Of a stretch of DNA of 43,168 bases, positions 14,026 through 28,733 are shown one piece after another. Below the pieces are notes generated by a model. It had not been told where the DNA came from. It did no database searches and saw nothing but the letters and a program-made list of their open reading frames with translations. The position numbers and the translations under genes were made by a program. The stretch covers positions 1-43,168 of the forward strand of contig CAAHDV010000191.1 of NCBI GenBank assembly GCA_900770535.1, in the 5' to 3' direction. This DNA comes from Lachnospiraceae bacterium. GTDB taxonomy: Bacteria > Bacillota > Clostridia > Lachnospirales > Lachnospiraceae. Numbering within the stretch: the stretch's first letter is position 1; each line of letters begins with the position of its first letter.

Positions 14026-14118
14026 ACGATGAATTTTAATTTGTCTGACATAATTGAAAACTGCAGCGAGGAGACAATGCCGTCATGTTTCTGGAAACGG
14101 GAGCATGGCGGTTTTTTT
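14026..14118 (+). ncRNA. Possible small RNA or leader transcript of about 90 nt
   Basis: A strong promoter (13990-14018) and an intrinsic terminator (stem 14080-14087 with 14104-14111, then seven T) define a transcript of about 90 nt. It contains a GAGGAG site and an ATG at 14077 that would encode 26 residues through the terminator to 14157; the composition is not convincing as a protein. It could be a small RNA, or an attenuated leader reading towards livJ. The terminator could also serve the MATE operon. Confidence 0.45.
14080..14118 (+). terminator. Intrinsic terminator
   Basis: CCGTCATG pairs with CATGGCGG (one G-T pair) around a 16-nt loop, followed by TTTTTTT. Confidence 0.75.
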
Positions 14119-14188: not shown

Positions 14189-14205
14189 TGTCTCAAAATG
14201 AGACA
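14189..14205. promoter_or_regulatory. Palindrome upstream of the liv-dha operon, possible activator site
   Basis: TGTCTCAAAATGAGACA has perfect 7-bp arms and a 3-bp centre and lies about 100 bp upstream of the livJ -35 box. Position and form are those of an upstream activator site for an enhancer-binding-protein-type regulator. The regulator encoded at the end of this operon is a candidate binder. It occurs once in the window. Confidence 0.5.
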
Positions 14206-14305
14206 AACATAGGAAAGAACCTTGTGAGAATGTAATAAATCGTGCAAATAAAACAAATGAAAACCGTGCAGAAACCACGAAGTTAAACAAGATGCACAAA
14301 CAACG

Positions 14306-14334
14306 TTGACATTTATGACGCAAAATTGTAAAAT
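14306..14334 (+). promoter_or_regulatory. SigA promoter of livJ
   Basis: TTGACA (14306-14311) and TAAAAT (14329-14334) are separated by 17 bases, 60 bases before livJ. No sigma54 (-24/-12) element is seen nearby. Confidence 0.7.
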
Positions 14335-14393
14335 TAAAACATCGAAAATGAAAATTTGGACAACAAGATCCATGAAATAAGGAGGAACAAAGT

Positions 14394-15620
14394 ATGAAGA
14401 AAAGAAATCTCGCAGTTTCACTGACACTCGCGGCAGCTATGGCACTTACAACAGCCTGCTCCGGCGGTTCTCAGAGCAGCAGCACTCCGGATACCACTGC
14501 AGCACAGAAGGAAGAGGCAGCAGCTGACACATCCGCAGCAGAGGGCGCAAGCAGTGATCTGGACACTTCCAATCCAATTACCATTGCGGTAGCAGCACCG
14601 ATGACCGGTGATAACTCTGAGTACGGTATCGGCTTCGCCAACGCAGCAAAGTTAATGGCAGAGAAGTGGAACGAGGACGGCGGATGCCTTGGCAGAGAAG
14701 TAAAAATCGTTGAGTACGACGACAAGAACACTTCCGAGGAAGCAACCACCATCGCACAGAAGATCGTATCCGACAAAGACAACATTGCCGGCGTGATCGG
14801 ACATTTCGCTTCCGGCGTATGTATGACAGCAGCTCCGATTTATCAGGAGAATGGCGTTATTGAGATTTCCCCGTCTTCCTCTCACCCGGATTATTCTTCC
14901 ATCGGTGACTACATCTTCAGAAATAACACCGTTATTTCCAAAGAGGGCGGCGCAAGTGTAGATATCGCAGTCAATGACCTTGGCAAGAAGAAAATCGGCA
15001 TCATCTCCATCATGACTGACTGGGGAACCAACACCTCCAAGATCATCACCGACATCATCAGTGGCATGAGCGATCAGGGCGTTTCCGTAGTAGCTCACGA
15101 GGAAGTTATGGAAGGTTCTGATGACTACTCCGCAGCAATCGCAAAACTGAACGACGCTGGCGCAGAGGCAGTTATCTGCTGTGGTATGTACAACCTGGTA
15201 GCACCGGTTGCAAAACAGTACAAACAGGTTAACCCGGATGTCTCCATCATCGCGTTCTCCAACGCTTACAGCCAGCAGCTCCTGGAGCTGGGCGGAAGCG
15301 CAGTAAACGGCGTATGCTTCCCGGTTATCTTCTTCGCAGATTCTGATGATCCTGAGATTCAGGCATATGTAAAACAGTACACCGATGTTTATGGAGCTGC
15401 ACCGTCTGCACTGACCTCTCAGGCATACGATTCCGTAGGCATGCTGCTTACCGCAATCGAAAATGCAGGTACCACCGAGTCTGATAAAGTAAAAGATGAG
15501 CTTTACAAAGTTGATTATCCGGGCGTTACCGGTCAGACCAAGTTTGACTCCAACGGTGATGTAGATAAGGAATTCGTAAAAGTAACCATCGAAGATGGCA
15601 AGTTCGTGAAAATGAAATAA
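14394..15620 (+). CDS. livJ: Branched-chain amino acid-type ABC transporter substrate-binding lipoprotein
   Basis: The 408-residue protein has a lipoprotein signal peptide with Cys22 in TTAC, a Ser/Thr/Ala-rich tether to about 55, and a type I periplasmic-binding fold (Peripla_BP_6). The fold starts with ITIAVAAPMTGDNSEYGIGFANAAKL. This class binds leucine/isoleucine/valine but also amides, urea, aromatic acids and other small molecules, so the name describes the family rather than the ligand. The kinase and methyltransferase genes in the same operon argue that the ligand may not be an amino acid. It has an AAGGAGG site. Confidence 0.9.
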   Translation: MKKRNLAVSLTLAAAMALTTACSGGSQSSSTPDTTAAQKEEAAADTSAAEGASSDLDTSNPITIAVAAPMTGDNSEYGIGFANAAKLMAEKWNEDGGCLGREVKIVEYDDKNTSEEATTIAQKIVSDKDNIAGVIGHFASGVCMTAAPIYQENGVIEISPSSSHPDYSSIGDYIFRNNTVISKEGGASVDIAVNDLGKKKIGIISIMTDWGTNTSKIITDIISGMSDQGVSVVAHEEVMEGSDDYSAAIAKLNDAGAEAVICCGMYNLVAPVAKQYKQVNPDVSIIAFSNAYSQQLLELGGSAVNGVCFPVIFFADSDDPEIQAYVKQYTDVYGAAPSALTSQAYDSVGMLLTAIENAGTTESDKVKDELYKVDYPGVTGQTKFDSNGDVDKEFVKVTIEDGKFVKMK

Positions 15621-15652
15621 ACAAAAGCGACAATCCATGTAAGTACATCTAA

Positions 15653-15682
15653 GGGAGCAGGAAAGCGTGCTTTCCTGCTCCC
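15653..15682 (+). other. Strong intercistronic hairpin after livJ
   Basis: GGGAGCAGGAAAGC (15653-15666) pairs perfectly with GCTTTCCTGCTCCC (15669-15682). No T-run follows. Such a hairpin usually protects the upstream message, giving more binding protein than permease. Confidence 0.75.
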
Positions 15683-15704
15683 TGTATCATTGAAAGGAGC
15701 CAAA

Positions 15705-16583
15705 ATGCTTGCTCAACAGGTTTTTAATGGTTTAGCCCTGGGAATGGGATATGCGTTAATAGCTGTCGGCTATTCGCTCGTATTCGGAATCCTTCGACTG
15801 GTCAATTTCTCACATGGTTCCATTTATGCTTTCGGAGCAGAAATTGCAATGGTATTCATTGTCAGCATGAAATTCGGCATTGTACCGGGGATTCTCTTAA
15901 GTATGTTAGTAACAGGCGCGTTGGGAATCATGATCGATAAGATTGCGCTGGAACCGCTTCGTAAAAAAGGTTCACCGCCTATCGCGTCCCTGATTACCAC
16001 CATCGGTATTTCTAACATTATCACCAACCTTCTGATCGTTTTCATTGGTTCTGAGAAAAGAAACTTCCCGAACATTTTCGGCTACGGCATGGTAAAACTG
16101 GGCGGGATCTCTATCACCATGACTCAGACCATGATGTGTGTGGTTTCTGTCGTGCTGATGCTCATTCTGGTATTCATTGTATTCAAGACCAAGATCGGCC
16201 TTGCAATGAGAGCCAGCCAGCAGAACGCAAAGGCAGCAAAAATGATGGGAATTGATGTAAACTTTGTTATCAGCTTTACATTCTTCCTTGCAGGCGTGTC
16301 CGCAACCCTTGCAGGCGCCCTGGTTGGCGGTTACTATGAGATCGTTTACCCGAACATGGGCTTCATGGCTGGCTTAAAGGCATTCGCGGCTGCGGTTCTT
16401 GGCGGTATTGGAAGTCTGCCGGGCGCAATCCTGGGCGGCCTGATCATTGGTGTTTCCGAGTGTATGGCAGTTACCTTCTTTGGTTCTACCTACCGCGATT
16501 CTGTAGCGTTTATCATTTTGATCCTGGTGCTGATCATTCGTCCGAACGGCCTGTTTGGTAAGAAGGGCATCACCAAGGTATAA
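15705..16583 (+). CDS. livH: Branched-chain amino acid-type ABC transporter permease LivH
   Basis: The 292-residue inner-membrane permease carries the LivH signature GYSLVFGILRLVNFSHGSIYAFGA in its first third and about eight hydrophobic segments. The C-terminal half has the conserved FAAAVLGGIGSLPGAILGGLIIGV loop that contacts the ATPase. The ATG at 15705 was chosen because AAGGAG precedes it directly; an in-frame TTG at 15690 lacks a site. Confidence 0.92.
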   Translation: MLAQQVFNGLALGMGYALIAVGYSLVFGILRLVNFSHGSIYAFGAEIAMVFIVSMKFGIVPGILLSMLVTGALGIMIDKIALEPLRKKGSPPIASLITTIGISNIITNLLIVFIGSEKRNFPNIFGYGMVKLGGISITMTQTMMCVVSVVLMLILVFIVFKTKIGLAMRASQQNAKAAKMMGIDVNFVISFTFFLAGVSATLAGALVGGYYEIVYPNMGFMAGLKAFAAAVLGGIGSLPGAILGGLIIGVSECMAVTFFGSTYRDSVAFIILILVLIIRPNGLFGKKGITKV

Positions 16584-16612
16584 GACACAGTGACGAAACT
16601 TGGAGGATAAAG

Positions 16613-17638
16613 ATGAAAAAAGATAATAGTACACTGCTTTCTTCGTTCGAACAGTTTACAGCGAAGAACGCAAAGATCCTTTGGGGAGTTCTGGCTGTTC
16701 TTCTTATTGCGTTGCCGTTTGTGGTAAAGAACCAGTATTTTTTGACGGTAGTCGCAAAAATCGGATGCTACGCGATTCTGGGTCTCGGCCTTAACATCCT
16801 GACCGGTTATACCGGCCTGGTATCCCTGGGCCATGCGGGATTTGTCGCAATCGGCGCTTATACGGCATCACTCCTGGCCGTAACGCTTGGCTGGTCCTTT
16901 TTCCCGGCTATGCTGGCAGGCATGCTGGTGGCAGCAGTCATCGGTGTATTAGTCGGACTGCCGACCTTACGTGTAACCGGAACTTACCTTTCTATCATCA
17001 CCCTGGGATTTGGTGAGATCGTCAAGATGATACTGATGAACTGGCAGAGCGTGACCAACGGTACTCTGGGCGTCAAAAATATTCCGAAGCCGCAGATTTT
17101 TGGAATCAAGCTGACCGTGGCAAACAACGGAATGTATTTTCTGATCCTGATCCTGATCGTGCTGATCTCCCTGTTCTGCAAGTCCCTCATCCAGTCCAAG
17201 ACCGGAAGAGCACTCCGTGCGATCAAGACCGATGAGATGGCCAGCACCATGATGGGAATCAACATCACAGGCTACAAGATCCTGGCGTTTGTCATTTCCG
17301 CTATGATCTGCGCACTGGGCGGAGCGCTGTATTCCTCCCTGATCGGTTATATCGATCCGAATACATTCAACTTCGATGTTTCAACCCTGATTTTAAGTAT
17401 CGTTATTTTAGGCGGAATGGGTACCCTCAGAGGCATGTATGTAGGCGCAATTGTGCTGGTTGCTTTCCCGGAGGTATCAAGAAGCCTTATGAAATACCGC
17501 TTCGTTCTTTATGGAGTAATCTTAGTCCTGATGATGCGTTTCCGTCCGGAAGGACTGCTGGGCTGGAAATCTTCTTTACCTTACAAATTATCAAAGAAGG
17601 TTCAGGCAAAGTTAAGCGGCGAAGAAGCAAACGCATAA
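16613..17638 (+). CDS. livM: Branched-chain amino acid-type ABC transporter permease LivM
   Basis: This 341-residue permease pairs with LivH. It has the LivM pattern GLGLNILTGYTGLVSLGHAGFVAIGAY near residues 58-84, the GLPTLRVTGTYLSIITLGFGEI stretch, and ILGGMGTLRGMYVGAIVLV as the ATPase-coupling region. About nine to ten membrane segments are evident. The start follows TGGAGG, 29 bases after livH. Confidence 0.92.
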   Translation: MKKDNSTLLSSFEQFTAKNAKILWGVLAVLLIALPFVVKNQYFLTVVAKIGCYAILGLGLNILTGYTGLVSLGHAGFVAIGAYTASLLAVTLGWSFFPAMLAGMLVAAVIGVLVGLPTLRVTGTYLSIITLGFGEIVKMILMNWQSVTNGTLGVKNIPKPQIFGIKLTVANNGMYFLILILIVLISLFCKSLIQSKTGRALRAIKTDEMASTMMGINITGYKILAFVISAMICALGGALYSSLIGYIDPNTFNFDVSTLILSIVILGGMGTLRGMYVGAIVLVAFPEVSRSLMKYRFVLYGVILVLMMRFRPEGLLGWKSSLPYKLSKKVQAKLSGEEANA

Positions 17639-17669
17639 AAAGAACGAACTGGCAACGGATGGAGGCACA

Positions 17670-18458
17670 ATGGCTAGAGAAGATTTGTTATTAGAGGTCA
17701 ACGGAATAACGAAAAGATTTGGCGGTATTGTTGCGGTAGAGAACGTCAGCTTCAAGGTTCATGAGGGCGAGGTCATCAGTATCATTGGACCAAACGGAGC
17801 AGGTAAGACTACAGTATTCAACATGCTGACCGGTGTTTATAAGGTTGATGAGGGGACGATCAGGTTCAAGGGTGAAGAAATCCAGAGCATGAACCCCAGA
17901 GATATTGTAAAAAAGGGTATTTCCAGAACATTCCAGAACATCCGGCTTTTCTCGGATATGCGGGTCATTGAGAACGTGCTTGTGGGCGCGCATATCAAAA
18001 CAAAGTACGATTTCTTTTCTTCTATTTTCAGAACAAAGAAATTTAAGGACGAGGAAGATGAAATCACCTACAATGCGCTGAAGGTTCTGCAGGAAGTAGG
18101 GCTCTATGACAGAAGAGATGATTACGCTTCCAACCTGCCTTATGGTGACCAGCGAAAGCTGGAGATCGCGCGCGCGATTGCTACCGGCGCAAAGCTGATT
18201 CTGCTGGATGAGCCGGCAGCCGGAATGAATCCACAGGAATCCCATGAGCTGATGGAATTTATCCGGCTCCTTAAAAAACAGGGCTATACCGTTTTGATGA
18301 TCGAGCACGATATGAGCGTGGTTATGAATATTTCAGACCGCATCTACGTAATCGACCATGGCAAACCGATCGCGGAAGGACTTCCGGAAGAGATCGCAAA
18401 GAATCAGAAGGTTATCGACGTATATCTGGGAGGTTCGAATAATGCTGCTAAAGATTGA
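17670..18458 (+). CDS. livG: Branched-chain amino acid-type ABC transporter ATPase LivG
   Basis: The 262-residue ATPase has Walker A GPNGAGKTT (about 40-48), the LivG-type insertion GISRTFQNIRLFSDMRVIENVLVGAH, and LPYGDQRKLEIARA as its divergent signature motif, common in LivG. Walker B LILLDEPAAGMNP and the H-loop MIEHDMSVV follow. It energises import with LivF. Its last 17 bases overlap the start of livF, so the two are coupled. Confidence 0.94.
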   Translation: MAREDLLLEVNGITKRFGGIVAVENVSFKVHEGEVISIIGPNGAGKTTVFNMLTGVYKVDEGTIRFKGEEIQSMNPRDIVKKGISRTFQNIRLFSDMRVIENVLVGAHIKTKYDFFSSIFRTKKFKDEEDEITYNALKVLQEVGLYDRRDDYASNLPYGDQRKLEIARAIATGAKLILLDEPAAGMNPQESHELMEFIRLLKKQGYTVLMIEHDMSVVMNISDRIYVIDHGKPIAEGLPEEIAKNQKVIDVYLGGSNNAAKD

Positions 18459-19152
18459 GGATCTGCATACTAATTACGGCGCGATCCATGCCCTGAAGGG
18501 AATCAGCCTGGAAGTAAATGAGGGCGAGATCGTCTGCCTCATCGGCAGTAACGGCGCCGGAAAAACAACGCTTGTGAATTCTATCGTTGGCATTGTGAAA
18601 TCGAGCAGCGGTAAGATCACATTTGACGGAAAAGATATCACGCATGTACCTGCGCATGCAATGACAAAAGCAGGAATCGGCATTTCTCCTGAGGGACGTG
18701 AGGTGTTCCCGGAGCTTACCGTAGAAGAAAACCTGCGTATTGGCGCGTTCATCGTAAAAGACCAGAATCAGATTAAGGAATCTTACGAGAGGGTTTACGC
18801 ATTATTCCCGCGTCTGAAAGAGCGTATCACGCAGTTGGCTGGTACCTTATCCGGCGGCGAGCAGCAGATGCTGGCCGTAGGAAGGGCACTGATGTCAAAC
18901 CCGAAGATGATCCTGCTTGACGAGCCGTCCCTGGGACTTGCTCCGAACTTTGTAGAGATGATCTTCGGCATGATCGAAAAGATCAACAAACAGGGGGTTA
19001 CGGTTCTTCTGATTGAGCAGAACGCGAATATGGCGCTTCAGGTTTCCCAGAGAGCCTATGTACTGGAGAATGGTCTCGTAAGTATGTCTGGCAAGGCCAG
19101 CGACATTGCAAATGATCCGATGGTAAAGAAAGCTTATCTCGGTATGGCATAA
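18442..19152 (+). CDS. livF: Branched-chain amino acid-type ABC transporter ATPase LivF
   Basis: The 236-residue ATPase has Walker A GSNGAGKTT, signature LSGGEQQMLAVGRAL, Walker B MILLDEPSLGLAP and H-loop LIEQNANMA; Gln in place of His in the H-loop region is usual for LivF. The frame is open from 18358 inside livG. The ATG at 18442 was chosen because it follows GGGAGG and matches the family N-terminus (MLLKIEDLHTNYG). Confidence 0.94.
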   Translation: MLLKIEDLHTNYGAIHALKGISLEVNEGEIVCLIGSNGAGKTTLVNSIVGIVKSSSGKITFDGKDITHVPAHAMTKAGIGISPEGREVFPELTVEENLRIGAFIVKDQNQIKESYERVYALFPRLKERITQLAGTLSGGEQQMLAVGRALMSNPKMILLDEPSLGLAPNFVEMIFGMIEKINKQGVTVLLIEQNANMALQVSQRAYVLENGLVSMSGKASDIANDPMVKKAYLGMA

Positions 19153-19179
19153 GGCAAAAACTATGAAAGGATGTATGTT

Positions 19180-20169
19180 ATGAAAAAGATTATCAACAAT
19201 CCGACTGATGTAGTAAGTGAGGCACTGATGGGCATGCAGGCAGCTTATCCGGATAAGCTGGTTTACACACCAAAGATGGAGGTCATCAGCAGAAAAGAGA
19301 AAAAGACCGATAAGGTTGCAGTCATCTCCGGCGGTGGCGCAGGCCATGAGCCGCTGCACGCAGGCTTTGTAGGAAAGGGCATGCTGGATGCTGCTATTTC
19401 CGGAAACGTATTCTCTTCCCCGAGCCCGGACCGTATCGGAAGTGCTATTGAGCAGGTTTCCTGCGGCAAAGGCGTACTGATGGTAATCAAGAACTATTCC
19501 GGTGATATCATGAACTTTGGCCTTTCCGCAGACCTCGCAGAGATGGATGACATCGAGGTTGCGCAGGTTATCGTAAAAGATGATGTTGCTGTTCCGGACA
19601 GAGAAGAAGGAACCGGCAGAAGAGGAATCGCGGGAACTGTTTTTGTACATAAGATCGCAGGCGCAAAGGCAGAGCAGGGGGCAAGCCTGGCTGAGGTAAA
19701 AGAGGCAGCAGAGAAGGCAATACGCAATATCCGCACTATGGGTGTTGCCATGACACCGTGCATCCTTCCGGCAGTCGGCAAACCTGGCTTCCAGATCGCG
19801 GATGATGAGATTGAAATCGGCATGGGAATCCATGGCGAAAAGGGTATTGAGACCACCAAGATCAAAACAGCAAAGGAAATTGCCGAGATTCTGGTAGGAC
19901 GTATTCTGGATGATTATGATTATTCGAACAGCGAAGTCGCAGTTTTAGTAAACGGACTTGGCGGAACTCCGCTGATGGAGCTTTACATCCTGAACATGGA
20001 AGTTCAGAAGATTCTGGAAGAGAAGGGCATTAAGGCATACCGTACTTTTGTAGGCAACTACTGCACCTCCATTGATATGACCGGTGCATCGGTTACCCTG
20101 ATGAAACTGGATGATGAACTGAAGGAACTGCTGGATGCTCCGTGTGACACCCCGGCACTGAAAATCTGA
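19180..20169 (+). CDS. dhaK: Dihydroxyacetone kinase substrate-binding subunit DhaK
   Basis: DhaK binds short ketoses such as dihydroxyacetone as a hemiaminal on a histidine, and DhaL phosphorylates them. The 329-residue protein keeps the E. coli active-site residues at the same numbers: His56 in GGGAGHEPLH, Asp109 in YSGDIMNF and His218 in GMGIHGEKG. A catalytic or carbonyl-sensing role is therefore credible. The ATG at 19180 has AAAGGA eight bases upstream; an ATG at 19171 is too close to that site. The gene follows livF by 27 bases, an uncommon pairing with a Liv-type importer. No DhaM phosphotransferase gene is near, so the phosphate donor path is open. Confidence 0.93.
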   Translation: MKKIINNPTDVVSEALMGMQAAYPDKLVYTPKMEVISRKEKKTDKVAVISGGGAGHEPLHAGFVGKGMLDAAISGNVFSSPSPDRIGSAIEQVSCGKGVLMVIKNYSGDIMNFGLSADLAEMDDIEVAQVIVKDDVAVPDREEGTGRRGIAGTVFVHKIAGAKAEQGASLAEVKEAAEKAIRNIRTMGVAMTPCILPAVGKPGFQIADDEIEIGMGIHGEKGIETTKIKTAKEIAEILVGRILDDYDYSNSEVAVLVNGLGGTPLMELYILNMEVQKILEEKGIKAYRTFVGNYCTSIDMTGASVTLMKLDDELKELLDAPCDTPALKI

Positions 20170-20184
20170 GGGAGGGAATAAGAG

Positions 20185-20835
20185 ATGAGCTTTACTTTAA
20201 CCGCAAAGGATTACGCAGAATACATCAAACTGGCATACGACCTGATTCATTCCAAAGGTGATTATATCACCGAGCTGGACAGCATTACCGGTGACGGAGA
20301 CCACTGGACCAACATCAACATGGGATTTGAGAATCTGGTAAAGAACATCGACCGTCTGGAGGTTATGGGACTTTCCGATGAGTTCAAGGAAATCGGCAAG
20401 ATCATGATGTCTGTCATCGGCGGTTCCTCCGGCGTACTGTACGGCAGCGCTTACATTGCAGCCGCAAAGGTATTAAAGGAGAAAGATGTTCTTCATGACG
20501 CTGACCTGTGCGCGGTCCTGAAAGCAATGCTGGATGCCATTGTTGCAAGAGGACAGGCAAAGGAAGGCTATAAGACCATGATCGATTCCCTGGCACCGGC
20601 CGTTAAGAAATACGAGGAGTGCCTGGCAAACGGAACCCCGACTGCAGAGTTATGTGAGCTGGTAAAGAAGGCAGCAGAGGACGGCGCCGAGAATACCAAG
20701 AACATGGAAGCAATCCGGGGCCGCGCGAGCTATCAGGCAAACCGCGGACTGGGCCATCTGGATCCGGGCGCAGTTACCATGTCCTACCAGATCGCTACTC
20801 TGATGGATTACGCAGCAGGAAAGATCACTGAATAA
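20185..20835 (+). CDS. dhaL: Dihydroxyacetone kinase ADP/ATP-binding subunit DhaL
   Basis: The 216-residue all-helical subunit carries the nucleotide-metal loop with Asp32, Asp37 and Asp39 (TGDGDH), the GGSSGVLYGSAY helix start and the C-terminal GHLDPGA motif, all as in DhaL. In PTS-type kinases DhaL holds ADP permanently and is recharged by DhaM. In E. coli DhaL-ADP also activates the regulator DhaR while DhaK opposes it. With a DhaR-like regulator in the same operon and no DhaM, this pair might sense as well as phosphorylate. It follows dhaK by 15 bases with a GGAGGG site. Confidence 0.92.
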   Translation: MSFTLTAKDYAEYIKLAYDLIHSKGDYITELDSITGDGDHWTNINMGFENLVKNIDRLEVMGLSDEFKEIGKIMMSVIGGSSGVLYGSAYIAAAKVLKEKDVLHDADLCAVLKAMLDAIVARGQAKEGYKTMIDSLAPAVKKYEECLANGTPTAELCELVKKAAEDGAENTKNMEAIRGRASYQANRGLGHLDPGAVTMSYQIATLMDYAAGKITE

Positions 20836-20859
20836 TAAAAGTAAGGAGTCGCAGTATAT

Positions 20860-22878
20860 ATGAGCGAGAATAGAAGGCAGCTTCTGAAAGATGCCATGGA
20901 CAATAAAGAGACATACCGGATCCCAATGGGATTCTGGCATCACTTTGTACTTGGAAAGGACCAGTTCCAGGGACTGGAGCGTCCGGAGCTTCTGGACAAG
21001 ATCGTAGAAGGCCACAAACGCTATTTTGAGACCATCGAGCCGGATATGATGAAGCTTATGAACGAGGGCTTCATGGGATATCCGCCAGTTATGAACAACA
21101 ACCTGGAGACCGCGGAAGATCTTCTTGCCATCAAGAGCATCGGCCCGGATCATCCGTGGATTACGGAGCAGGTAAAGCATGTGCGCCGTCTGGTAGACCT
21201 GTTTGGCGATAAGGTCATGACATTCTACAATGTATTCGCGCCGCTGCAGGTTATTCGTATCCGTCTGGATTTTTATGACCTGAAATATGACCGCTTTGTA
21301 TATCTTGCAGAGCATTTCCCGGAGGAGCTTCACAAAGCCGGAATGGAGATTCAGAAGGATCTGGAGATCCTGGTGACAAAGCTTCTGACCGAGACAAAGC
21401 TGGACGGTATTTACTACTGCGTACAGAATGTACAGAGCAGTATGTATGACCGTGAAACCTATGACCGTCTGATCCGCCCGACCGAGATTGGCGTGCTGGA
21501 GACCGCAAATAAGCTGAGTGATTACAATATTCTCCATATCTGCGGATACGCGCACCACAAAAACAATTTAAGCTGGTATCAGGATTACAAGGCAAAGGCT
21601 TATAACTGGGCAACCTTTACAGAGGGCGTTACCATTGAGGAAGGTCGCAAGCTGTTCTCGGGTAAGTGTGTACTGGGCGGCTTTGACAACAACCCGGAGA
21701 CCCTGATCGACAGTGGAAGCGAAGAGGAAGTCTGCAAATTTGTAGACCAGCTCATTAAGGAAAACGGACACCGCGGCTACATCATGGGCGCTGACTGTTC
21801 CATTCCGAACAACATCAATGACGGAAGAATCCACTGGATTTCCAGACGGGTGAAAGAAAAGGAGAATTGTATGAAAGACGATAGAAAAGCGGTAATTGAC
21901 GCATTTTTAAATAACGAGACCGAGGAGAGAGTACCGGTTGCCTTCTGGCATCATTTCGTATCCTTCCATAACCATTACAGCGGAGCTGATCCGGAAATCT
22001 ACAACACCGTAGTGGCTGAGCAGAAAAAGTACATCGATGAAGTAAAACCAGATTTCTTAAAGATCATGTCGGATGGTTTCTTTGGTCATCCGTCTGTATG
22101 CCGCAAGACCATCACTTCCGTTGAGGATCTGGACAAGGTAGAGTCCGTTGGCCCGGATCATCCGTGGATCACCAAGCAGGTTGAGTATGTGAAAGAAATC
22201 TGTGAGCATGCCGGTGATGATGTATACAAATACTACAACATCTTCTCTCCGCTCCAGTACATTAGACTTCGTTTCGAGGAGTACGATGAGGACTTCAAGA
22301 AATTCGTAAGACTGTTCCACGAGAGCCCGGAGGTTATGGAGAAGGCCGCAAGATGCATCGCGGAGGATACCAAGATTCTGGTTAAGAAGCTGTTTGAGGA
22401 GACTTCCATCGACGGCATTTACTACAGCGTACAGTGTGTACAGGATAAGATGCTGACCCATGCGGGCCACAAGAAACTGGTAGAGCCGCTGGATCTGGAT
22501 GTATTAAACTATATCAACGAGTTTTCTACTAAGACTATTCTCCATATCTGCGGATACGGAAAATATACCAACAATTTAAGCTGGTATAAGGATTACCCGG
22601 TAGCAGCTTACAACTGGGCTGTATATTCTGAGGGCATTACCCTTGGCGAAGGCAAGAAGATTCTGGGCGACAAGCCGGTAATTGGTGGCTTCGACAATGC
22701 AGAGGGAAGCATCCTCTATACCGGAACCGAGGAAGAGTTAAGAGCTGAGATTAAGAAGATCCTCGATGAGGCAGGTACAAAGGGCGTAGCAATCGGTGCT
22801 GACTGCACCATTTCTTCTGATATTGCTCCGGAGAGATTAGAGCTGATCCGCAAGATCGCGGCTGAGTATACAAAATAA
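20860..22878 (+). CDS. Tandem MtaA/UroD-fold zinc methyltransferase-like protein (two fused domains)
   Basis: Two homologous domains of about 336 residues each (1-337 and 338-672) are joined in frame. Shared blocks include FWHHFV, GPDHPWIT, LHICGY, NNLSWY, YNWA and GADC. Each half has the H-x-C...C zinc-ligand pattern of MtaA/MtbA-type methylcobamide:thiol methyltransferases (His226, Cys228, Cys313 and His562, Cys564, Cys649). The arginine-rich N-terminal loop that uroporphyrinogen decarboxylase needs is replaced by FWHHF, so haem synthesis is unlikely. At the junction, ATG 21871 is preceded by AAAAGGAG six bases upstream, the relic of a separate gene start or an internal translation start. 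No corrinoid protein is encoded nearby. Confidence 0.8.
   Translation: MSENRRQLLKDAMDNKETYRIPMGFWHHFVLGKDQFQGLERPELLDKIVEGHKRYFETIEPDMMKLMNEGFMGYPPVMNNNLETAEDLLAIKSIGPDHPWITEQVKHVRRLVDLFGDKVMTFYNVFAPLQVIRIRLDFYDLKYDRFVYLAEHFPEELHKAGMEIQKDLEILVTKLLTETKLDGIYYCVQNVQSSMYDRETYDRLIRPTEIGVLETANKLSDYNILHICGYAHHKNNLSWYQDYKAKAYNWATFTEGVTIEEGRKLFSGKCVLGGFDNNPETLIDSGSEEEVCKFVDQLIKENGHRGYIMGADCSIPNNINDGRIHWISRRVKEKENCMKDDRKAVIDAFLNNETEERVPVAFWHHFVSFHNHYSGADPEIYNTVVAEQKKYIDEVKPDFLKIMSDGFFGHPSVCRKTITSVEDLDKVESVGPDHPWITKQVEYVKEICEHAGDDVYKYYNIFSPLQYIRLRFEEYDEDFKKFVRLFHESPEVMEKAARCIAEDTKILVKKLFEETSIDGIYYSVQCVQDKMLTHAGHKKLVEPLDLDVLNYINEFSTKTILHICGYGKYTNNLSWYKDYPVAAYNWAVYSEGITLGEGKKILGDKPVIGGFDNAEGSILYTGTEEELRAEIKKILDEAGTKGVAIGADCTISSDIAPERLELIRKIAAEYTK
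21857..21873 (+). promoter_or_regulatory. Ribosome binding site and ATG inside the fused methyltransferase gene
   Basis: AAAAGGAG, six bases and ATG occur in frame exactly at the domain boundary. Ribosomes could make the second domain alone as well as the fusion. Confidence 0.6.
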
Positions 22879-22896
22879 CAGGATGAGGTCCTTGGG

Positions 22897-22935
22897 AAGG
22901 TCCGGAAAAGCCGTGCAGGTGCTTTTCCGGACCTT
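22897..22935 (+). other. Strong hairpin between the methyltransferase and regulator genes
   Basis: AAGGTCCGGAAAAGC (22897-22911) pairs perfectly with GCTTTTCCGGACCTT (22921-22935) around nine bases; the next bases are TCTG. It may terminate weakly or separate expression of the regulator from the operon. Confidence 0.65.
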
Positions 22936-22957
22936 TCTGCATGATGTGGGGTGTGTT

Positions 22958-24583
22958 ATGAAGTATAAGGGTGAGTTAAAGACAGAATTTGATGATTTCG
23001 CGCGGGCTATCTCAGATGTCCTGGAAACCGATGTTATTATCACGGATGCAGACATGAATGTGATCGGCAGTGCGTTCCAGTATTTTTCCCTGTATCAGGA
23101 TATTAAAATCGGCTCGCTGATGGCGGAAGTATTTTATGATAATCAGGACGTCCTGCTGGAGCATAAGCGGGACAAGGAAAGCTGCAGGCAGTGTCCGGAA
23201 TATCTTGTCTGTAAGATGGAATCCTTTGTGGGTGTGCCGATCCGCCTGGACCACCGGACCATAGGTGTGATTGCCCTGATTTTACCAAAGGACAGAGGAA
23301 AAGCCTTGTTTAAAAAAATCAATTCTACGGTCACATTTATGCACAGCATGGCCGATTTGATTGCTTCCAAGATTACAGACAGCCAGTATTCACGGATTAT
23401 AGAAGAAAAAAATGATGAATTAAAAGGAATCCTAGATGCCAATGATACGGCGCTGGTTTACACCGATTTTTATGGAAATATCCTGTTTGCCAACGAGTCC
23501 TTCCGAAAGCTGTTCTGGATCACGGAGCCGCTTCTCGGAAAACGAATCCAGGAATTGTTTCCTTATGAGGCCATTCAGGAGACGTTTCGCACTCAGCAGC
23601 GGAAGAACAGAATGATGAAAGCCGCCATTGAGCGGAATCATTTTTACGGCATCATCAACATCAAGCCAATCTATGAGCATGAACACGGTGCTTCTATGCT
23701 GTTTACCTTCCGCAAATACAGCGAGATCCGGAAGGAATCCGTACAGTTTACGAACGGGAGCTACATTACCTTTGATTTTCTGGAGGATATCTGCGATATG
23801 GAGCTGTTAAAACGGGCCAGAACTTATGCACGGGAGAACCGCAATATCATTCTGGTGAATACCGATGATGCGGAGATCAATGAGCTGGTGGCGAAGGCGA
23901 TCCACAATGAATCCAGCCGGAAGCTGAAGGATATTCTGATCATGCACAGCTCCAGCATTTATCAGGATTATCTGTGTGAATATCTGTTTGGCGAGGACGG
24001 GCTGCTGAAAAATATCCATGACGGGACCATCATCATCAATTACCCGGAGCGGATGCAGATCTACTACCAGGAGCGTCTGGCAGAGGTGATCGAGAATCGG
24101 AAAAAACAGAGAGACCTGGAGCCGGTACGGATCATTTTCTGCACGGATCAGAATCTGGAGGAGCGGTGTCAGGCCGGACTGTTCAGCCAGAGGCTGTATG
24201 ACATCATGCAGGGGCAGAGCCTGCGTCCGGTCCATACGGTTCACACAGACCGGGAACTTTTTCTGCGCTATACGGAAAATATGCTGGATTACTATTGCAG
24301 CATTTACAAAAAGAGCAGGACGGCAGCAGCCATAGCGCCTGCGGATTATGAGCGGCTGATGAGGATGGAAATTAACGAACTGAATATCCAGCTGGAAATG
24401 GCGGTGCTGCATGATGGATATGTGCATGCAGCAACAGAACTTCCGGACATTTCCTCCAGGGCGTACGAGCTGAAACAAATACGGGAGCTGCTGGATGCAG
24501 GAAAGACCCAGAAGGAAATCTGCAGCAGGCTCTCTATTTCCCGCAGTACCTTGAACCGCAGAATTGCGGAATTGAGAAAATAA
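22958..24583 (+). CDS. DhaR/PrpR-like transcriptional regulator with a degenerate AAA+ domain
   Basis: The 541-residue protein has the layout of a sigma54 enhancer-binding protein. A GAF-like sensor spans about 5-140 and includes Cys76, Cys79 and Cys85. A PAS domain (150-255), an AAA+-like region (268-425) and a C-terminal helix-turn-helix (505-540) follow. The AAA+ region keeps family landmarks such as ELVAKAIHNESSRK, EYLFGEDGLL and VRIIFCTDQNLEERCQAGLFS. The Walker A glycines and lysine are gone (NTDDAEINE), the GAFTGA loop is deleted and Walker B reads GTIIINYP. It should not hydrolyse ATP or remodel sigma54. E. coli DhaR, also of this family, acts at a sigma70 promoter and is controlled by DhaK and DhaL. 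The ATG at 22958 was preferred because the open frame upstream runs through a hairpin. Confidence 0.85.
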   Translation: MKYKGELKTEFDDFARAISDVLETDVIITDADMNVIGSAFQYFSLYQDIKIGSLMAEVFYDNQDVLLEHKRDKESCRQCPEYLVCKMESFVGVPIRLDHRTIGVIALILPKDRGKALFKKINSTVTFMHSMADLIASKITDSQYSRIIEEKNDELKGILDANDTALVYTDFYGNILFANESFRKLFWITEPLLGKRIQELFPYEAIQETFRTQQRKNRMMKAAIERNHFYGIINIKPIYEHEHGASMLFTFRKYSEIRKESVQFTNGSYITFDFLEDICDMELLKRARTYARENRNIILVNTDDAEINELVAKAIHNESSRKLKDILIMHSSSIYQDYLCEYLFGEDGLLKNIHDGTIIINYPERMQIYYQERLAEVIENRKKQRDLEPVRIIFCTDQNLEERCQAGLFSQRLYDIMQGQSLRPVHTVHTDRELFLRYTENMLDYYCSIYKKSRTAAAIAPADYERLMRMEINELNIQLEMAVLHDGYVHAATELPDISSRAYELKQIRELLDAGKTQKEICSRLSISRSTLNRRIAELRK

Positions 24584-24763: not shown

Positions 24764-24785
24764 GGATGCATATCGAAAATAGGGC

Positions 24786-24980
24786 AATCGGTGCCGGGGA
24801 CCGCAAAATGCGGACTCAGGGTAAAAGGGAAGCAGGTGGAAGACCTGCGCGATCTCGTCACTGTAAGCAAGGAGCATTGGATTATGCGCATGCCGGAGGG
24901 GCATGGCAGCCACTGGTTTTTGGAGACCGGGAAGGCAATCTTATGTGTGTTGAGCTGCGAGCCAGGAAACCTGCCGGTTG
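24786..24980 (+). ncRNA. Cobalamin (B12) riboswitch
   Basis: The conserved blocks appear in order: GGTGCC near 24790, AAAAGGGAAGCAGGTG with its core up to CACTGTAAGC, GCCACTG near 24909, and the B12 box GAGCCAGGAAACCTGCC (24959-24975). Adenosyl- or methylcobalamin binding would repress the downstream genes. About 170 bases separate the aptamer from the cbiK-type start and would hold the expression platform; I did not identify a clear terminator there. Confidence 0.93.
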
Positions 24981-25149
24981 TTGGTACAGGAGCATTCCAG
25001 ACCACGAGGACTTGGTCGTGCCGTATGATCTTTGAAAGCGTTTCGTAAGGTTGTTCAGAGCCATTGTTCGTGGTATGTCCCAGTATTCCAAAATCGATAG
25101 TGTCAGTACGAGTGGTGTTACACCATACCATTTTAGAGGAGGACGTATC

Positions 25150-26178
25150 ATGAAGAAAAAAACACTGACAGCGTTATTTGCAGTGACCGCGCTTTCTGCT
25201 GCGATGATGGCAGGCTGTGCGGGAAAGGCAGAGAAAGCAGAGGTAACCACAGCAGAGGAGACTACCACTGAGGCAGCAGAGGAAACTACTGAGGCAGAGA
25301 CGGAAGCGACCGAGGCTGAGGAGGAAGACGAAGAAAATTACGATACTGGAGACGCATCTATGGACAACACAAGAAATCAGGATGAGATCGGGGATCAGGA
25401 GCTTTTAGTAGTGAGCTTCGGAACCAGCTACAATGACAGTCGCCGCCTTACCATCGGCGCTATCGAGAACGCAATGGAAGAGGCATTCCCGGATTACTCT
25501 GTAAGACGAGGATTTACCAGTCAGATCATCATTGATCATGTAAAATCCAGAGATGGCGTAACAATCGATAATGTAGACGAGGCATTAAAGCGTGCTGTAG
25601 ATAACAAAGTGAAGACCCTGGTTATCCAGCCGACTCATCTGATGAATGGTCTGGAGTACACCGATCTGGCAGACGAGGTAGCACAGTATTCAGACGCATT
25701 TGACAAAGTAGCCATCGGTCAGCCGCTGTTAACCAGCGATGACGATTTTAAGGCAGTGATCAAGGCCATTACCGAGGCAACCGCAGAGTACGATGACGGC
25801 GAGACCGCAATCTGCTTCATGGGCCATGGCACCGAGGCAGATTCCAACGCTGTTTACGCAAAGATGCAGGATATGCTGGCTTCTGAGGGTTACGAGCACT
25901 ACTATGTAGGTACCGTAGAGGCAGAGCCGAGCCTGGAAGATGTGATCGCGAAGGTAAAAGAGGGTGAGTACAAGAAGGTTGTTCTTGAGCCGCTTATGAT
26001 CGTTGCAGGTGACCATGCAAACAACGATATGGCAGGCGATGAGGATGGCTCCTGGAAGACCGAGTTTGAGAAGGCTGGTTACGATGTAACCTGTCTGGTA
26101 CGCGGCTTAGGCGAGTTAGAGCCGATCCAGCAGCTGTTTGTTGAGCATGCGCAGGCAGCCATCGACAGCCTGAAGTAA
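25150..26178 (+). CDS. cbiK: Lipoprotein-anchored sirohydrochlorin cobaltochelatase CbiK-like protein
   Basis: CbiK normally inserts cobalt into sirohydrochlorin in the cytoplasm. This 342-residue copy begins with a lipoprotein signal peptide (Cys23 in MAGC) and a Thr/Glu-rich acidic tether to about residue 80, so it should sit outside the membrane. The chelatase domain starts at LLVVSFGTSYNDSRRLT and keeps the metal-site histidines His163 (QPTHL) and His226 (MGHG), with His289 in GDHANND. Secreted CbiK proteins of Desulfovibrio bind haem or act in cobalt/tetrapyrrole handling. The B12 riboswitch upstream and the transporter downstream support corrinoid, tetrapyrrole or cobalt scavenging here. 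The ATG at 25150 has GAGGAGG; longer in-frame starts lie in the leader RNA. Confidence 0.88.
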   Translation: MKKKTLTALFAVTALSAAMMAGCAGKAEKAEVTTAEETTTEAAEETTEAETEATEAEEEDEENYDTGDASMDNTRNQDEIGDQELLVVSFGTSYNDSRRLTIGAIENAMEEAFPDYSVRRGFTSQIIIDHVKSRDGVTIDNVDEALKRAVDNKVKTLVIQPTHLMNGLEYTDLADEVAQYSDAFDKVAIGQPLLTSDDDFKAVIKAITEATAEYDDGETAICFMGHGTEADSNAVYAKMQDMLASEGYEHYYVGTVEAEPSLEDVIAKVKEGEYKKVVLEPLMIVAGDHANNDMAGDEDGSWKTEFEKAGYDVTCLVRGLGELEPIQQLFVEHAQAAIDSLK

Positions 26179-26211
26179 TCAGAGTCATTAGAAAAACAGG
26201 ATAATAAGAAT

Positions 26212-26242
26212 GGGCGGCGGATGGATTCCGGCCGCCCGTTTT
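26212..26242 (+). terminator. GC-rich hairpin with a short T-tract after the cbiK-type gene
   Basis: GGGCGGC (26212-26218) pairs with GCCGCCC (26231-26237), then GTTTT. It could attenuate the genes downstream and lies only 17 bases before the next start. Confidence 0.5.
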
Positions 26243-26258
26243 GATAGGGATGAAAAAT

Positions 26259-27257
26259 ATGAGAAAGAAAATATATGGAATTGTGGCAGCAGTATGCGTA
26301 AGCAGTATTCTGGCAGCAGGCTGCGGTGGAAAAAATCAGGCAGAGACACTGCCCGCACAGGGCGGAAAGCCGGTTGTGGTATCGGAGGAGACTGGAAACG
26401 CGGATGGAGCAGAGAATCAGGACGCGCAGAAGGATGGTGCGGATGCGAAGGACAGTTCGCAGGAGAGTGCTGATGCCGATGTAGCTGCGGCAGATGAGAC
26501 TGCGGCGCAGCAGAGCGTCGGGACAGAAGGCATGACACCGGTGGCCGGATCAGAGTTAAAAGATGGCGTGTACCAGATTCAGGTGGACTCCAGTTCCAGT
26601 ATGTTTAAGATTGAGGCATGTGAGTTGACCGTAAAAGACGGCGAGATGACTGCAGATATGAAGATGGGTGGTACCGGTTACTTAAAGCTTTTTATGGGAA
26701 CTGGGGAAGAGGCTGCGAAGGCTTCTGAGGATCAGATGATCCCCTTTGAGGAAGATGGGGATGGAAGCCATCATTTTACGGTTCCGGTGGAGGCACTGGA
26801 CAAGGAACTGGACTGCGCTGCTTTCAGCAAGAAGAAAGAAAAATGGTATGACCGGGTTTTGGTATTCCGGGCGGATTCCCTTCCGGCGGACGCACTGACA
26901 GATGCGGCCCAGGTGACTGTGGAAAGCCTGGGACTGGCAGATGGTACTTACACTGTGGAGGTGTCCATGGAGGGCGGATCCGGTAAAGTGAGCGTGGAAT
27001 CTCCGGCGAAGCTTACCGTAAAGGATCAGAAGGCGGTTGCGGAGGTTGTGTGGAGCAGCCCAAATTATGATTACATGAAGGTTGGAGAGGAGAAATTTCT
27101 CCCGGTGAATCAGGGTGGAGAAACCTCTATGTTTGAAATTCCGGTGACCGTATTTGACCGGAAGATGTCGGTGGCGGCCGATACTACAGCCATGAGTACG
27201 CCCCATGAGATTGAATATACGCTGCGGTTTGATTCTGCAAGTGTTAAGGCAGAATGA
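26259..27257 (+). CDS. Two-domain NEAT-like surface lipoprotein
   Basis: The 332-residue protein has a lipoprotein signal with Cys22 (LAAGC) and an acidic, Ala/Asp-rich tether to about 95. Two similar beta-sandwich-like domains follow (about 97-215 and 217-330). Each starts DGxYxxxV, has a TVKDxxxxAxxxW/M stretch and ends in a Tyr-containing strand, the general pattern of NEAT (haem/iron-transport) domains. I do not see a clear haem-ligand motif, so the fold call is tentative. Its place between a surface CbiK and a BtuF/FecB-type receptor suggests it binds or passes on a tetrapyrrole. The ATG at 26259 follows AGGGAT; two earlier in-frame starts are less likely. Confidence 0.6.
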   Translation: MRKKIYGIVAAVCVSSILAAGCGGKNQAETLPAQGGKPVVVSEETGNADGAENQDAQKDGADAKDSSQESADADVAAADETAAQQSVGTEGMTPVAGSELKDGVYQIQVDSSSSMFKIEACELTVKDGEMTADMKMGGTGYLKLFMGTGEEAAKASEDQMIPFEEDGDGSHHFTVPVEALDKELDCAAFSKKKEKWYDRVLVFRADSLPADALTDAAQVTVESLGLADGTYTVEVSMEGGSGKVSVESPAKLTVKDQKAVAEVVWSSPNYDYMKVGEEKFLPVNQGGETSMFEIPVTVFDRKMSVAADTTAMSTPHEIEYTLRFDSASVKAE

Positions 27258-27306
27258 GAAAGCAGATGACACGGCGTGTGAATCGCGTTACAGAGTGAGG
27301 ATGAAT

Positions 27307-28620
27307 ATGAGAAAACGTGGAAATATGTGGCTGCGCCGCAACGTGCTGGCTGGTGCGCTGGTGGTGTTTCTGGCGGCGGGAGTTTCGGCCTGCGGTACTG
27401 GCAGGGTGTCGGGATCGGGGACGGAATCGGAGCAGAATGCGGCGGATGCTCGAAAGGCGGCTGCAGAAGCCGGAAATACGGATCAGGATGCGGGCAAATC
27501 CGGGAATGGTTCTGGCGGTGAATTGCAGCAGGATGGTTCAGGACAGTCTGGCCGTGCCGTGTCTGCACCGGTCTGGAGCAACATGAAGCCGGAGCGCAGC
27601 ATGGAGCTTTCCTACGCGAAGCAGTTTTCTGTAGATTATTATGACGGCGGCTATGACCTGATCCAGGTGCAGGATGATAGTACTTATCTGGTGGTGCCAG
27701 AGGAGGCTGCTGTGCCGGAGGGACTTCCTGCGTCCATTACCGTTTTGCAGAAGCCGTTGGATCATGTGTATCTGGCAGCGACATCCGCTATGGATCTGAT
27801 CGCAGCACTGAACCGGACGGACCGCATTACGTTGTCGGGCACGAAGGAGTCTGGCTGGTATGTGGAAGCCGCAAAGGAGGCCATGGAAGAAGGAAGCCTC
27901 ACCTACGCGGGCAAATACAGCGCGCCGGATTATGAGCAGATTGTTTCTTCGGGCTGTGATCTGGCGCTGGAATCCACCATGATCTATCATGTGCCGGATG
28001 TGAAAGCACAGTTAGAACAGTTAAAGATTCCGGTGTTTGTGGAGCGCTCCAGTTATGAGGCTCATCCTCTGGGAAGAATGGAGTGGATCCGCCTGTACGG
28101 TGTGCTGTTTGATGAGGAAGAAAAGGCAGAGCAGCTTTTTAAGGAACAGATGGAGCAGCTTGACGCAGTTCTGGCGAATCAGTCCACCGGAAAGAGTGCA
28201 GCATTTTTCTATATCACGACCAATGGTGCGGTCAATGTGCGAAAGCCGGGTGACTATGTGGCAAAGATGATCGAACTGGCGGGAGGAAGCTATGTGCCTC
28301 AGACGGCGGATGCAGACGAGAATGCCCTTTCCACCATGAACATGCAGATGGAAACCTTTTACGCGGAGGCAAAAGACGCAGACTGCCTGATCTACAACAG
28401 CACCATAGACGGGGAACTGCAGACGCTGGATGAGCTGCTGCAGAAAAGTCCGCTGCTGGCTGATTTTAAGGCGGTAAAGAATGGCAATGTCTGGTGTACC
28501 GGAAAAAATATGTTTCAGGAGACGATGGGGCTTGGAAATATGATTCTGGATATGCATGCAGTGCTTTCGGAGGATGCGCCGGATGAAGCAGAGCTTCATT
28601 ACCTGCACCGGCTGCGGTAA
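27307..28620 (+). CDS. BtuF/FecB-type ABC transporter substrate-binding lipoprotein
   Basis: The 437-residue protein has a signal peptide ending at Cys29 (VSAC), a Gly/Ser/Asp-rich tether and a type III binding fold (Peripla_BP_2). Typical stretches are VYLAATSAMDLIAALNRTDRI, YEQIVSSGCDLALE and NGNVWCTGKNMFQ. This class binds corrinoids, haem or ferric siderophores. The B12 riboswitch at the head of the gene cluster makes a corrinoid or related ligand the best guess. Starts at 27301 and 27307 are both possible; the second has better spacing from GAGG. The open frame reaches back into the previous gene, but that part is not family-like. Confidence 0.85.
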   Translation: MRKRGNMWLRRNVLAGALVVFLAAGVSACGTGRVSGSGTESEQNAADARKAAAEAGNTDQDAGKSGNGSGGELQQDGSGQSGRAVSAPVWSNMKPERSMELSYAKQFSVDYYDGGYDLIQVQDDSTYLVVPEEAAVPEGLPASITVLQKPLDHVYLAATSAMDLIAALNRTDRITLSGTKESGWYVEAAKEAMEEGSLTYAGKYSAPDYEQIVSSGCDLALESTMIYHVPDVKAQLEQLKIPVFVERSSYEAHPLGRMEWIRLYGVLFDEEEKAEQLFKEQMEQLDAVLANQSTGKSAAFFYITTNGAVNVRKPGDYVAKMIELAGGSYVPQTADADENALSTMNMQMETFYAEAKDADCLIYNSTIDGELQTLDELLQKSPLLADFKAVKNGNVWCTGKNMFQETMGLGNMILDMHAVLSEDAPDEAELHYLHRLR

Positions 28621-28733
28621 TTGCAGATCTGCAGCATGACTGGCTGTGAAGCAGTGGAATGTTGTGGGAGACTTATGGAAAACTGCAGGACAGAGAAGGC
28701 GAAAAACACAGGGAGAATGAAAGGAGAGAGAAC

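Follow-up and report, generated by a model that had tools for sequence, protein, structure and literature searches.

Layout of the operon

The window analysed here is a 43,168-nucleotide stretch of Lachnospiraceae DNA (contig CAAHDV010000191.1, assembly GCA_900770535.1). Positions 14394-24583 carry nine genes, all on the + strand, which the open reading frame (ORF) list and profile searches identify as a Liv-type importer of five subunits, DhaK, DhaL, a protein of the UroD superfamily (hereafter URO) and a regulator:

14394..15620, + strand: LivJ-type solute-binding protein (PF13458), with motifs common to the PF14196-type sister operons described below
15705..16583, + strand: LivH-type permease; the ATG at 15705, after AAAGGAG, is preferred to the TTG at 15690 of the ORF list
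16613..17638, + strand: LivM-type permease, by profile match
17670..18458, + strand: LivG-type ATPase, by profile match
18442..19152, + strand: LivF-type ATPase; the ATG at 18442 is preferred to the ORF-list start at 18358
19180..20169, + strand: DhaK, from a refined ATG start at 19180
20185..20835, + strand: DhaL
20860..22878, + strand: fused URO1-URO2 protein of the UroD superfamily (URO1, 20860-21867; URO2, 21868-22878), with zinc-type ligands in both halves
22883..24583, + strand: DhaR-like regulator with GAF, weak PAS, degenerate AAA and C-terminal helix-turn-helix (HTH) regions; start at ATG 22883 or 22958

The gaps between these genes measure, in order, 87 bases (84 with the LivH start at ATG 15705), 29 and 31 bases, followed by an overlap and by gaps of 27, 15, 24 and 4 bases. 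An initial annotation, made from the sequence, had described a one-directional single operon with short gaps, and this description holds: all nine genes are present and their order recurs complete in 12 genomes.

Conservation of the gene set

To place the operon among its relatives, genome contigs were scanned for URO and the best 80 of 166 stretches were kept; operon counts refer throughout to genes selected by homology, and a gene counted as being in the stretch lies within the stretch fetched. The order LivJHMGF-DhaK-DhaL-URO-URO is complete at 11 of these loci (L001-L005 and L008-L013) and at a twelfth, L157, found through a DhaL search. These 12 fetched genomes belong to several families, carry URO1 and URO2 as separate genes, and in three cases (L008, L009 and L011) have the two UROs in reversed order; a further locus, L006, is cut at the contig start and is visible from LivM onwards. 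Among the 13 loci in which URO1 identity is at least 56% (L001-L013), 12 have Liv, DhaK, DhaL and two UROs together, and L007 has URO1 without them. The initial annotation had staked its reading on the liv and dha-UroD parts occurring together, and at these loci they do. The operon is nevertheless uncommon: 18 of 392 genomes from the order have a URO match at 1e-20, and among the 15 of these that were looked at (G167, G381 and G391 were left out), the operon is present in G001, around which the draw was centred, and in G012, while 13 others lack it next to that URO.

A close DhaL (1e-50) is found in eight of the 392 genomes. Two of these have the URO-type operon (G001 and G012), one has another context (G400, locus L153), and the remaining five (L148-L152) have LivJHMGF, DhaK, DhaL and a DhaR-like regulator with no URO and, in its stead, a PF14196-type gene resembling L-2-amino-thiazoline-4-carboxylate hydrolase. 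This gene occupies the URO1-URO2 slot between DhaL and the regulator in L148-L150 and lies just 5' of DhaK in L151 and L152; Pfam confirmed the family in the four proteins that were run, the fifth (L151) being assigned by phmmer only. All five genomes lie outside the 18 that have a URO match. For the two loci computed, the Liv and DhaKL proteins are 70-82% (L149) and 50-67% (L152) identical to those of the window, with LivH at 82% and DhaK at 80% in L149. Three stretches of LivJ (GHFASGVCM, ISPSSSHPDY and FSNAYS) are aligned and kept, with small changes, in URO-type and PF14196-type operons alike. We read these common stretches, along with the shared Liv and DhaKL proteins, as one importer and one ligand class that would be served by two unrelated protein sets. 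A sequence search of the PDB with the PF14196 protein gave no match. As a separate observation, two Treponema loci (L022 and L025) place URO and PF14196-type genes among amidohydrolases and M28 and M20 peptidases (Pfam was run on L022), a context suggestive of the same compound in N-acyl or peptide form.

The importer itself belongs to the amino-acid/amide class by its profile matches. Its subunits match the LivHMGF models best, yet all five score below the curated, and strict, NCBIfam cut-offs for branched-chain amino acid (LIV) transport (bits/cut-off: LivJ 134.5/477, LivH 199.3/379, LivM 241.3/366, LivG 309.9/362, LivF 276.1/441). We also considered the LivJ pocket, where Asn or Ser replaces the acidic residue by which leucine-binding proteins anchor the alpha-amino group; this comparison combines an alignment with general residue roles, and we give it no weight.

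Association with a cysteine desulfidase

A CyuA-like gene lies in the fetched stretch of six of the 12 URO-type and four of the five PF14196-type operons, that is, in 10 of 17 operons, where about 0.14 would be expected. The expectation was derived from 32 matches in 80 Mb of 32 genomes (the PF14196-type genomes not among them) and 17 stretches of 20 kb. In five operons (L001, L148, L149, L151 and L152) CyuA is the first gene. The CyuA-like protein of L149, the one compared with the PDB, matches a solved L-cysteine desulfidase (9he0) at 1.6e-30, and the Cys and Glu of the GCTE motif are kept in 23 of 24 CyuA-like proteins. According to PMC12647591, these two residues are essential for L-cysteine desulfidase and are not conserved in serine dehydratases. 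By homology and catalytic residues, then, the CyuA-like neighbours qualify as predicted L-cysteine desulfidases.

The fused UroD-type protein

URO1-URO2 is a tandem duplication of 672 residues, the halves of which are 41% identical. Each half has a His-x-Cys and a later Cys (H226/C228/C313 and H562/C564/C649), and this triad is invariant in all 50 aligned UROs; as a zinc-type set, it suits zinc with a soft sulfur ligand. Fold and profile place the protein in the UroD superfamily (PF01208). Against the MtaA/CmuA family model TIGR01463 it reaches 47.8 bits where the cut-off is 235.4; it has the zinc-type ligands of that family and falls outside its profile. In relatives the two parts are encoded by separate genes, and URO1 and URO2 make up two paralogous clades that occur as a pair. 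Within the set of 14 proteins listed, the fusion is seen only in the window, P0001 and P0002. PDB sequence searches with URO and with a URO profile gave no match. By a rule taken from a preprint (PMC10418091), the His-Cys-Cys set of URO favours sulfur or selenium over oxygen.

There is no corrinoid protein gene in the window operon or in the 12 complete URO-type operons, where every gene belongs to another family. The corrinoid domain PF02607 is absent from 18 of 32 URO genomes, including Oribacterium OT078, Catonella, Peptoniphilus and all six streptococci examined, and present in 14, in eight of which the match falls within a frame of some 790-860 residues, a size that we take to be that of the methionine synthase MetH. 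Some absences may reflect genome gaps, but G001, G003, G009 and G012 (loci L001, L003, L010 and L013) are named strains and also lack the domain. A corrinoid is thus no fixed partner of URO.

Two further observations concern UROs elsewhere. In the database protein P0005 a single chain of 551 residues combines DhaL with URO, a second type of fusion tying these two domains together. At Streptococcus loci such as L041 and L053, from oral streptococci with no PF02607 match, tandem UROs stand with a polar amino acid-type ABC transporter and, by eye, a glmS-like gene nearby. In Streptococcus a binding-protein gene follows the UROs; for the protein of L041, the one tested, NCBIfam ranks a cystine model first (64.3 bits, cut-off 312), and the top matches in the PDB are amino-acid-binding proteins.

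DhaK, DhaL and the regulator

The initial annotation had reported intact DhaK and DhaL active sites and no DhaM, and both points are supported. DhaK scores 461.6 bits against TIGR02363 (cut-off 406.25) and has His56, Asp109 and His218 at exactly those residue numbers; DhaL scores 176.4 bits against TIGR02365 (cut-off 138.3) and keeps all three metal-binding Asp residues (D32, D37 and D39). A search of the 43-kb window with one DhaM sequence found no DhaM-like ORF. DhaL further bears a subfamily mark, GDGDHW, in which Trp41 stands in place of the Gly found in the seven DhaKLM-like DhaLs compared (GDxDHG). Among the matches listed for the window DhaL as query, 118 of 120 DhaLs have this mark, and the other two did not fit the pattern.

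By TIGR02364, DhaM is absent from 10 and present in six of 16 related genomes; one of the ten, G013, is also without DhaK, which leaves nine of 15 DhaK-bearing genomes without DhaM. In four of these (G001, G002, G009 and G011) the single DhaK is the one in this operon. The catalytic residues are kept in all operon DhaKs and DhaLs inspected, a set that does not include L148-L152 and L157. The tree also contains a separate DhaK clade (support 100/100) in Treponema, Soehngenia, Kallipyga and others, members of which adjoin Liv genes, PF14196, URO or CyuA at L015, L021, L026, L120 and L121. This second lineage lies near DhaKs from operons with putative sugar ABC transporters, classed by appearance rather than by Pfam. 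It thus appears that DhaKL became part of such gene sets on two or more occasions, a point in favour of a catalytic role. The pair is probably an ATP-dependent kinase, ATP being inferred as the phosphoryl donor from the lack of DhaM.

Additional DhaK/DhaL pairs occur beside some of these operons. In L006, L008 and L011 a second pair adjoins the operon, with DhaM (TIGR02364 matches) between the two genes; it is divergent in L006 and L008 and upstream on the same strand in L011. In L122 (G015, Anaerolineaceae) one Liv operon holds two PF14196-type genes and two DhaK/DhaL pairs.

The regulator, which had been likened to an enhancer-binding protein or DhaR, is indeed DhaR-like: it has GAF, AAA and HTH matches and a PAS match below the Pfam cut-off, a GAF-PAS-AAA-HTH layout without GAFTGA and without Walker A. 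Its best NCBIfam model is DhaR (PRK11388), at 50.9 bits against a cut-off of 551. GAFTGA is missing from the window protein and 10 relatives, and Walker A from all of them except L151 and L152. Because GAFTGA is absent and Walker A mostly so, sigma-54 activation is unlikely; a pattern scan of the regions upstream of seven operons, the window's among them, found no sigma-54 promoter, and DhaR itself works with sigma-70. A DhaR-like regulator is in the stretch of five of the 12 URO-type and all five PF14196-type operons. Of the URO-type operons without it, four (L004, L010, L012 and L157) have a GntR gene and three (L008, L009 and L011) have neither. The window regulator and its 10 aligned relatives also conserve a CxxC...C cluster ahead of the PAS region, possibly a metal or redox site.

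A possible route for a cysteine-derived compound

We suggest that the operon serves the breakdown of a small amino compound that contains sulfur and probably derives from cysteine; this reading, based on gene content and motifs, we regard as about evenly poised between right and wrong. LivJ would bind the compound outside the cell and Liv would import it. URO1/URO2, or the PF14196 protein in the sister operons, would then use a metal to hold the compound by its thiol or thioether sulfur, and would cleave off or transfer a small carbon group with no corrinoid involved. Through His218, DhaK would form a covalent bond with a hydroxy-carbonyl form of the released group or of the whole compound, which DhaL would phosphorylate, probably from ATP. 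Cysteine freed in this way could pass to CyuA and yield pyruvate, ammonia and sulfide, while the DhaR-like protein might sense the compound directly or via DhaK/DhaL and work without sigma-54. All of these parts would be accounted for by a triose-like hydroxycarbonyl in the form of a cysteine conjugate or thiazolidine, although the substrate itself is a guess.

Taken to its full extent, the proposal would describe an anaerobic pathway for a cysteine-hydroxycarbonyl conjugate (a thiazolidine or thioether, for example a triose-cysteine adduct or S-glyceryl-cysteine), with corrinoid-free zinc-thiol chemistry by a two-barrel URO, an ATP-dependent DhaKL that passes the carbon part into glycolysis and CyuA producing hydrogen sulfide from the remainder; it would range over Lachnospiraceae, Peptoniphilaceae, Tissierellaceae and Treponema of gut and mouth, with URO exchanged in the sister operons for the unrelated PF14196 protein. 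That all of this should hold jointly is doubtful, and we offer it as a tentative scheme.

Several points weigh against a cysteine-derived substrate handled without a corrinoid. The binomial P for the CyuA enrichment, near 2e-17, takes no account of shared ancestry and serves as a guide only; CyuA is missing from the fetched stretch of seven of the 17 operons and is divergent in L008 and L009, and the window itself has neither CyuA nor a PF14196 gene. A PF02607 protein of 216-219 residues, like true corrinoid proteins, is present in three of the 12 genomes G001-G012 (G006, G007 and G008), two more of them have a long one, and a cobalamin riboswitch about 0.2 kb downstream of the operon marks the adjoining unit as B12-controlled. 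In 14 of 85 labelled contexts URO is accompanied by none of the partners sought, and the distant UROs L108 and L110-L119 have none of those looked for; in other distant relatives, PfkB at L015 and LacI at L026 hint at sugar chemistry. The PF14196 family, finally, was presumably named from one characterised reaction, and the predicted fold of the sister-operon protein resembles TRAPP/V4R-type ligand-binding domains, so that the exchange could mean a common sensor or carrier rather than a common reaction.

Such hints of sugar chemistry lead to a different substrate, namely a sulfur-free hydroxy-carbonyl or short sugar (triose or tetrose) that Liv would import and DhaKL phosphorylate, with the URO pair as an isomerase or lyase and with CyuA and PF14196 as incidental neighbours. 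Known substrates of DhaKL are dihydroxyacetone and its kin, and the proximity of the second DhaK lineage to DhaKs with putative sugar ABC transporters points the same way as PfkB and LacI. We nonetheless hold this to be unlikely in view of the CyuA-like genes in 10 of 17 operons, the invariant His-Cys-Cys set of URO and the amino-acid/amide class of the transporter. Less probable again is uptake followed by corrinoid-dependent demethylation with URO as the methyltransferase. The initial annotation had proposed, as one of two readings, demethylation of a methylated compound, and this part of it was not supported: the ligand set favours sulfur or selenium, the 12 complete URO-type operons consist of genes of other families, PF02607 is missing from 18 of 32 URO genomes, and URO falls far short of the MtaA/CmuA cut-off. 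On the operon content and the PF02607 absences we set demethylation aside as the leading explanation.

The other proposal made at that stage, that DhaK and DhaL act mainly as carbonyl sensors for the regulator, draws on the regulator's best match being DhaR, on its lack of GAFTGA and on its presence in five of 12 URO-type and five of five PF14196-type operons. It has to contend with the seven URO-type operons that retain DhaKL with no DhaR-like regulator in the stretch; because DhaKL persists where this regulator is missing, a sensor-only role is unlikely, and we rejected it on that ground. With catalytic residues kept in the DhaKs and DhaLs inspected and a second DhaK lineage in such operons, we see only a slender chance for it even as the main function. 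Least credible of all is that an ordinary branched-chain amino acid importer came by chance to precede unrelated dha and UroD genes. The Liv subunits do match LivHMGF models best, but the same order in 12 genomes of several families speaks against chance adjacency, which we rejected; that the scores lie under the strict LIV cut-offs counts for little. Overall, the interpretation in the initial annotation is partly supported, and the links to cysteine desulfidase and PF14196 lay outside its view. Its remark that it knew of no described pathway with this gene set agrees with our search of the open-licence literature, in which none was found.

Relation to known systems

The E. coli/Klebsiella dha regulon (DhaK, DhaL, DhaM and DhaR) shares with the operon a DhaK and DhaL with all catalytic residues and a regulator for which DhaR is the best model. 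The operon differs in that no DhaM was found in the window, its DhaL carries the GDGDHW mark, importer and URO genes are part of the operon, and the regulator is far below the DhaR cut-off. With the UroD-superfamily thiol methyltransferases MtaA, MtbA and MtsA and the Mlps of type 1 mlp gene clusters, as presented in the preprint PMC10418091, URO has in common the fold and the His-Cys-Cys set. Here, unlike there, the operon is without a corrinoid protein, the partners are Liv and DhaKL, and URO1 and URO2 form a co-travelling pair of paralogues. MetE, the cobalamin-independent methionine synthase, has zinc only in its C-terminal barrel, whereas the ligands are kept in both halves of URO1-URO2 and relatives have the halves as separate genes.

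The E. coli CyuP/CyuA cysteine fermentation unit (PMC9040844) likewise combines import with L-cysteine desulfidase, and CyuA is a frequent neighbour here. In place of that simple pairing, the present operons have a Liv-type importer, DhaKL and URO or PF14196, which suggests a cysteine conjugate rather than free cysteine. Resemblance to L-2-amino-thiazoline-4-carboxylate hydrolase lies in the Pfam matches above the cut-off (four of four run); the context of DhaKL and Liv and the TRAPP/V4R-like predicted fold set the sister-operon protein apart. To our knowledge, the Pseudomonas pathway for this compound has neither DhaKL nor Liv. We also considered sulfoquinovose degradation, during which dihydroxyacetone kinase is induced (PMC11659671); neither "branched-chain" nor "DhaK" occurs in the text of that source.

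If the cysteine-derived reading is correct, the operon would provide a first genetic handle on the use of cysteine adducts by gut and oral anaerobes, and could represent a hidden source of hydrogen sulfide. It would also offer UroD-type zinc proteins that act free of corrinoid, and a DhaKL that acts without the phosphotransferase system on a substrate other than dihydroxyacetone. With PF14196 standing in for URO1-URO2 in the sister operons, there would be two unrelated protein sets with which to probe one function.

Boundaries and neighbouring genes

A search of a plasmid collection returned two short matches. Upstream of the operon the window encodes an AdhE whose sequence is 98% identical to one database protein and 91% to another that is labelled Brotaphodocola sp., so that the host is probably one of the Lachnospiraceae. 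The following features flank the operon:

14079..14112, + strand: terminator-like hairpin before the operon, after the MATE-like gene upstream; 15 pairs then a T-run, by consensus match only
14306..14334, + strand: promoter-like site 5' of livJ, TTGACA-17-TAAAAT; 11 of 12 matches, the best in the region, by consensus match only
24772..24992, + strand: cobalamin riboswitch (RF00174, 91.3 bits), outside the operon, opening the next unit

These features fit the operon boundaries that the initial annotation had drawn, with the hairpin and promoter-like site before livJ and the riboswitch at the start of the following unit. That unit (24772-29750) continues with a lipoprotein-like CbiK cobaltochelatase, a NEAT-like protein, a periplasmic binding protein and a FecCD permease, and is by its predicted gene content a tetrapyrrole or corrinoid/heme salvage unit.

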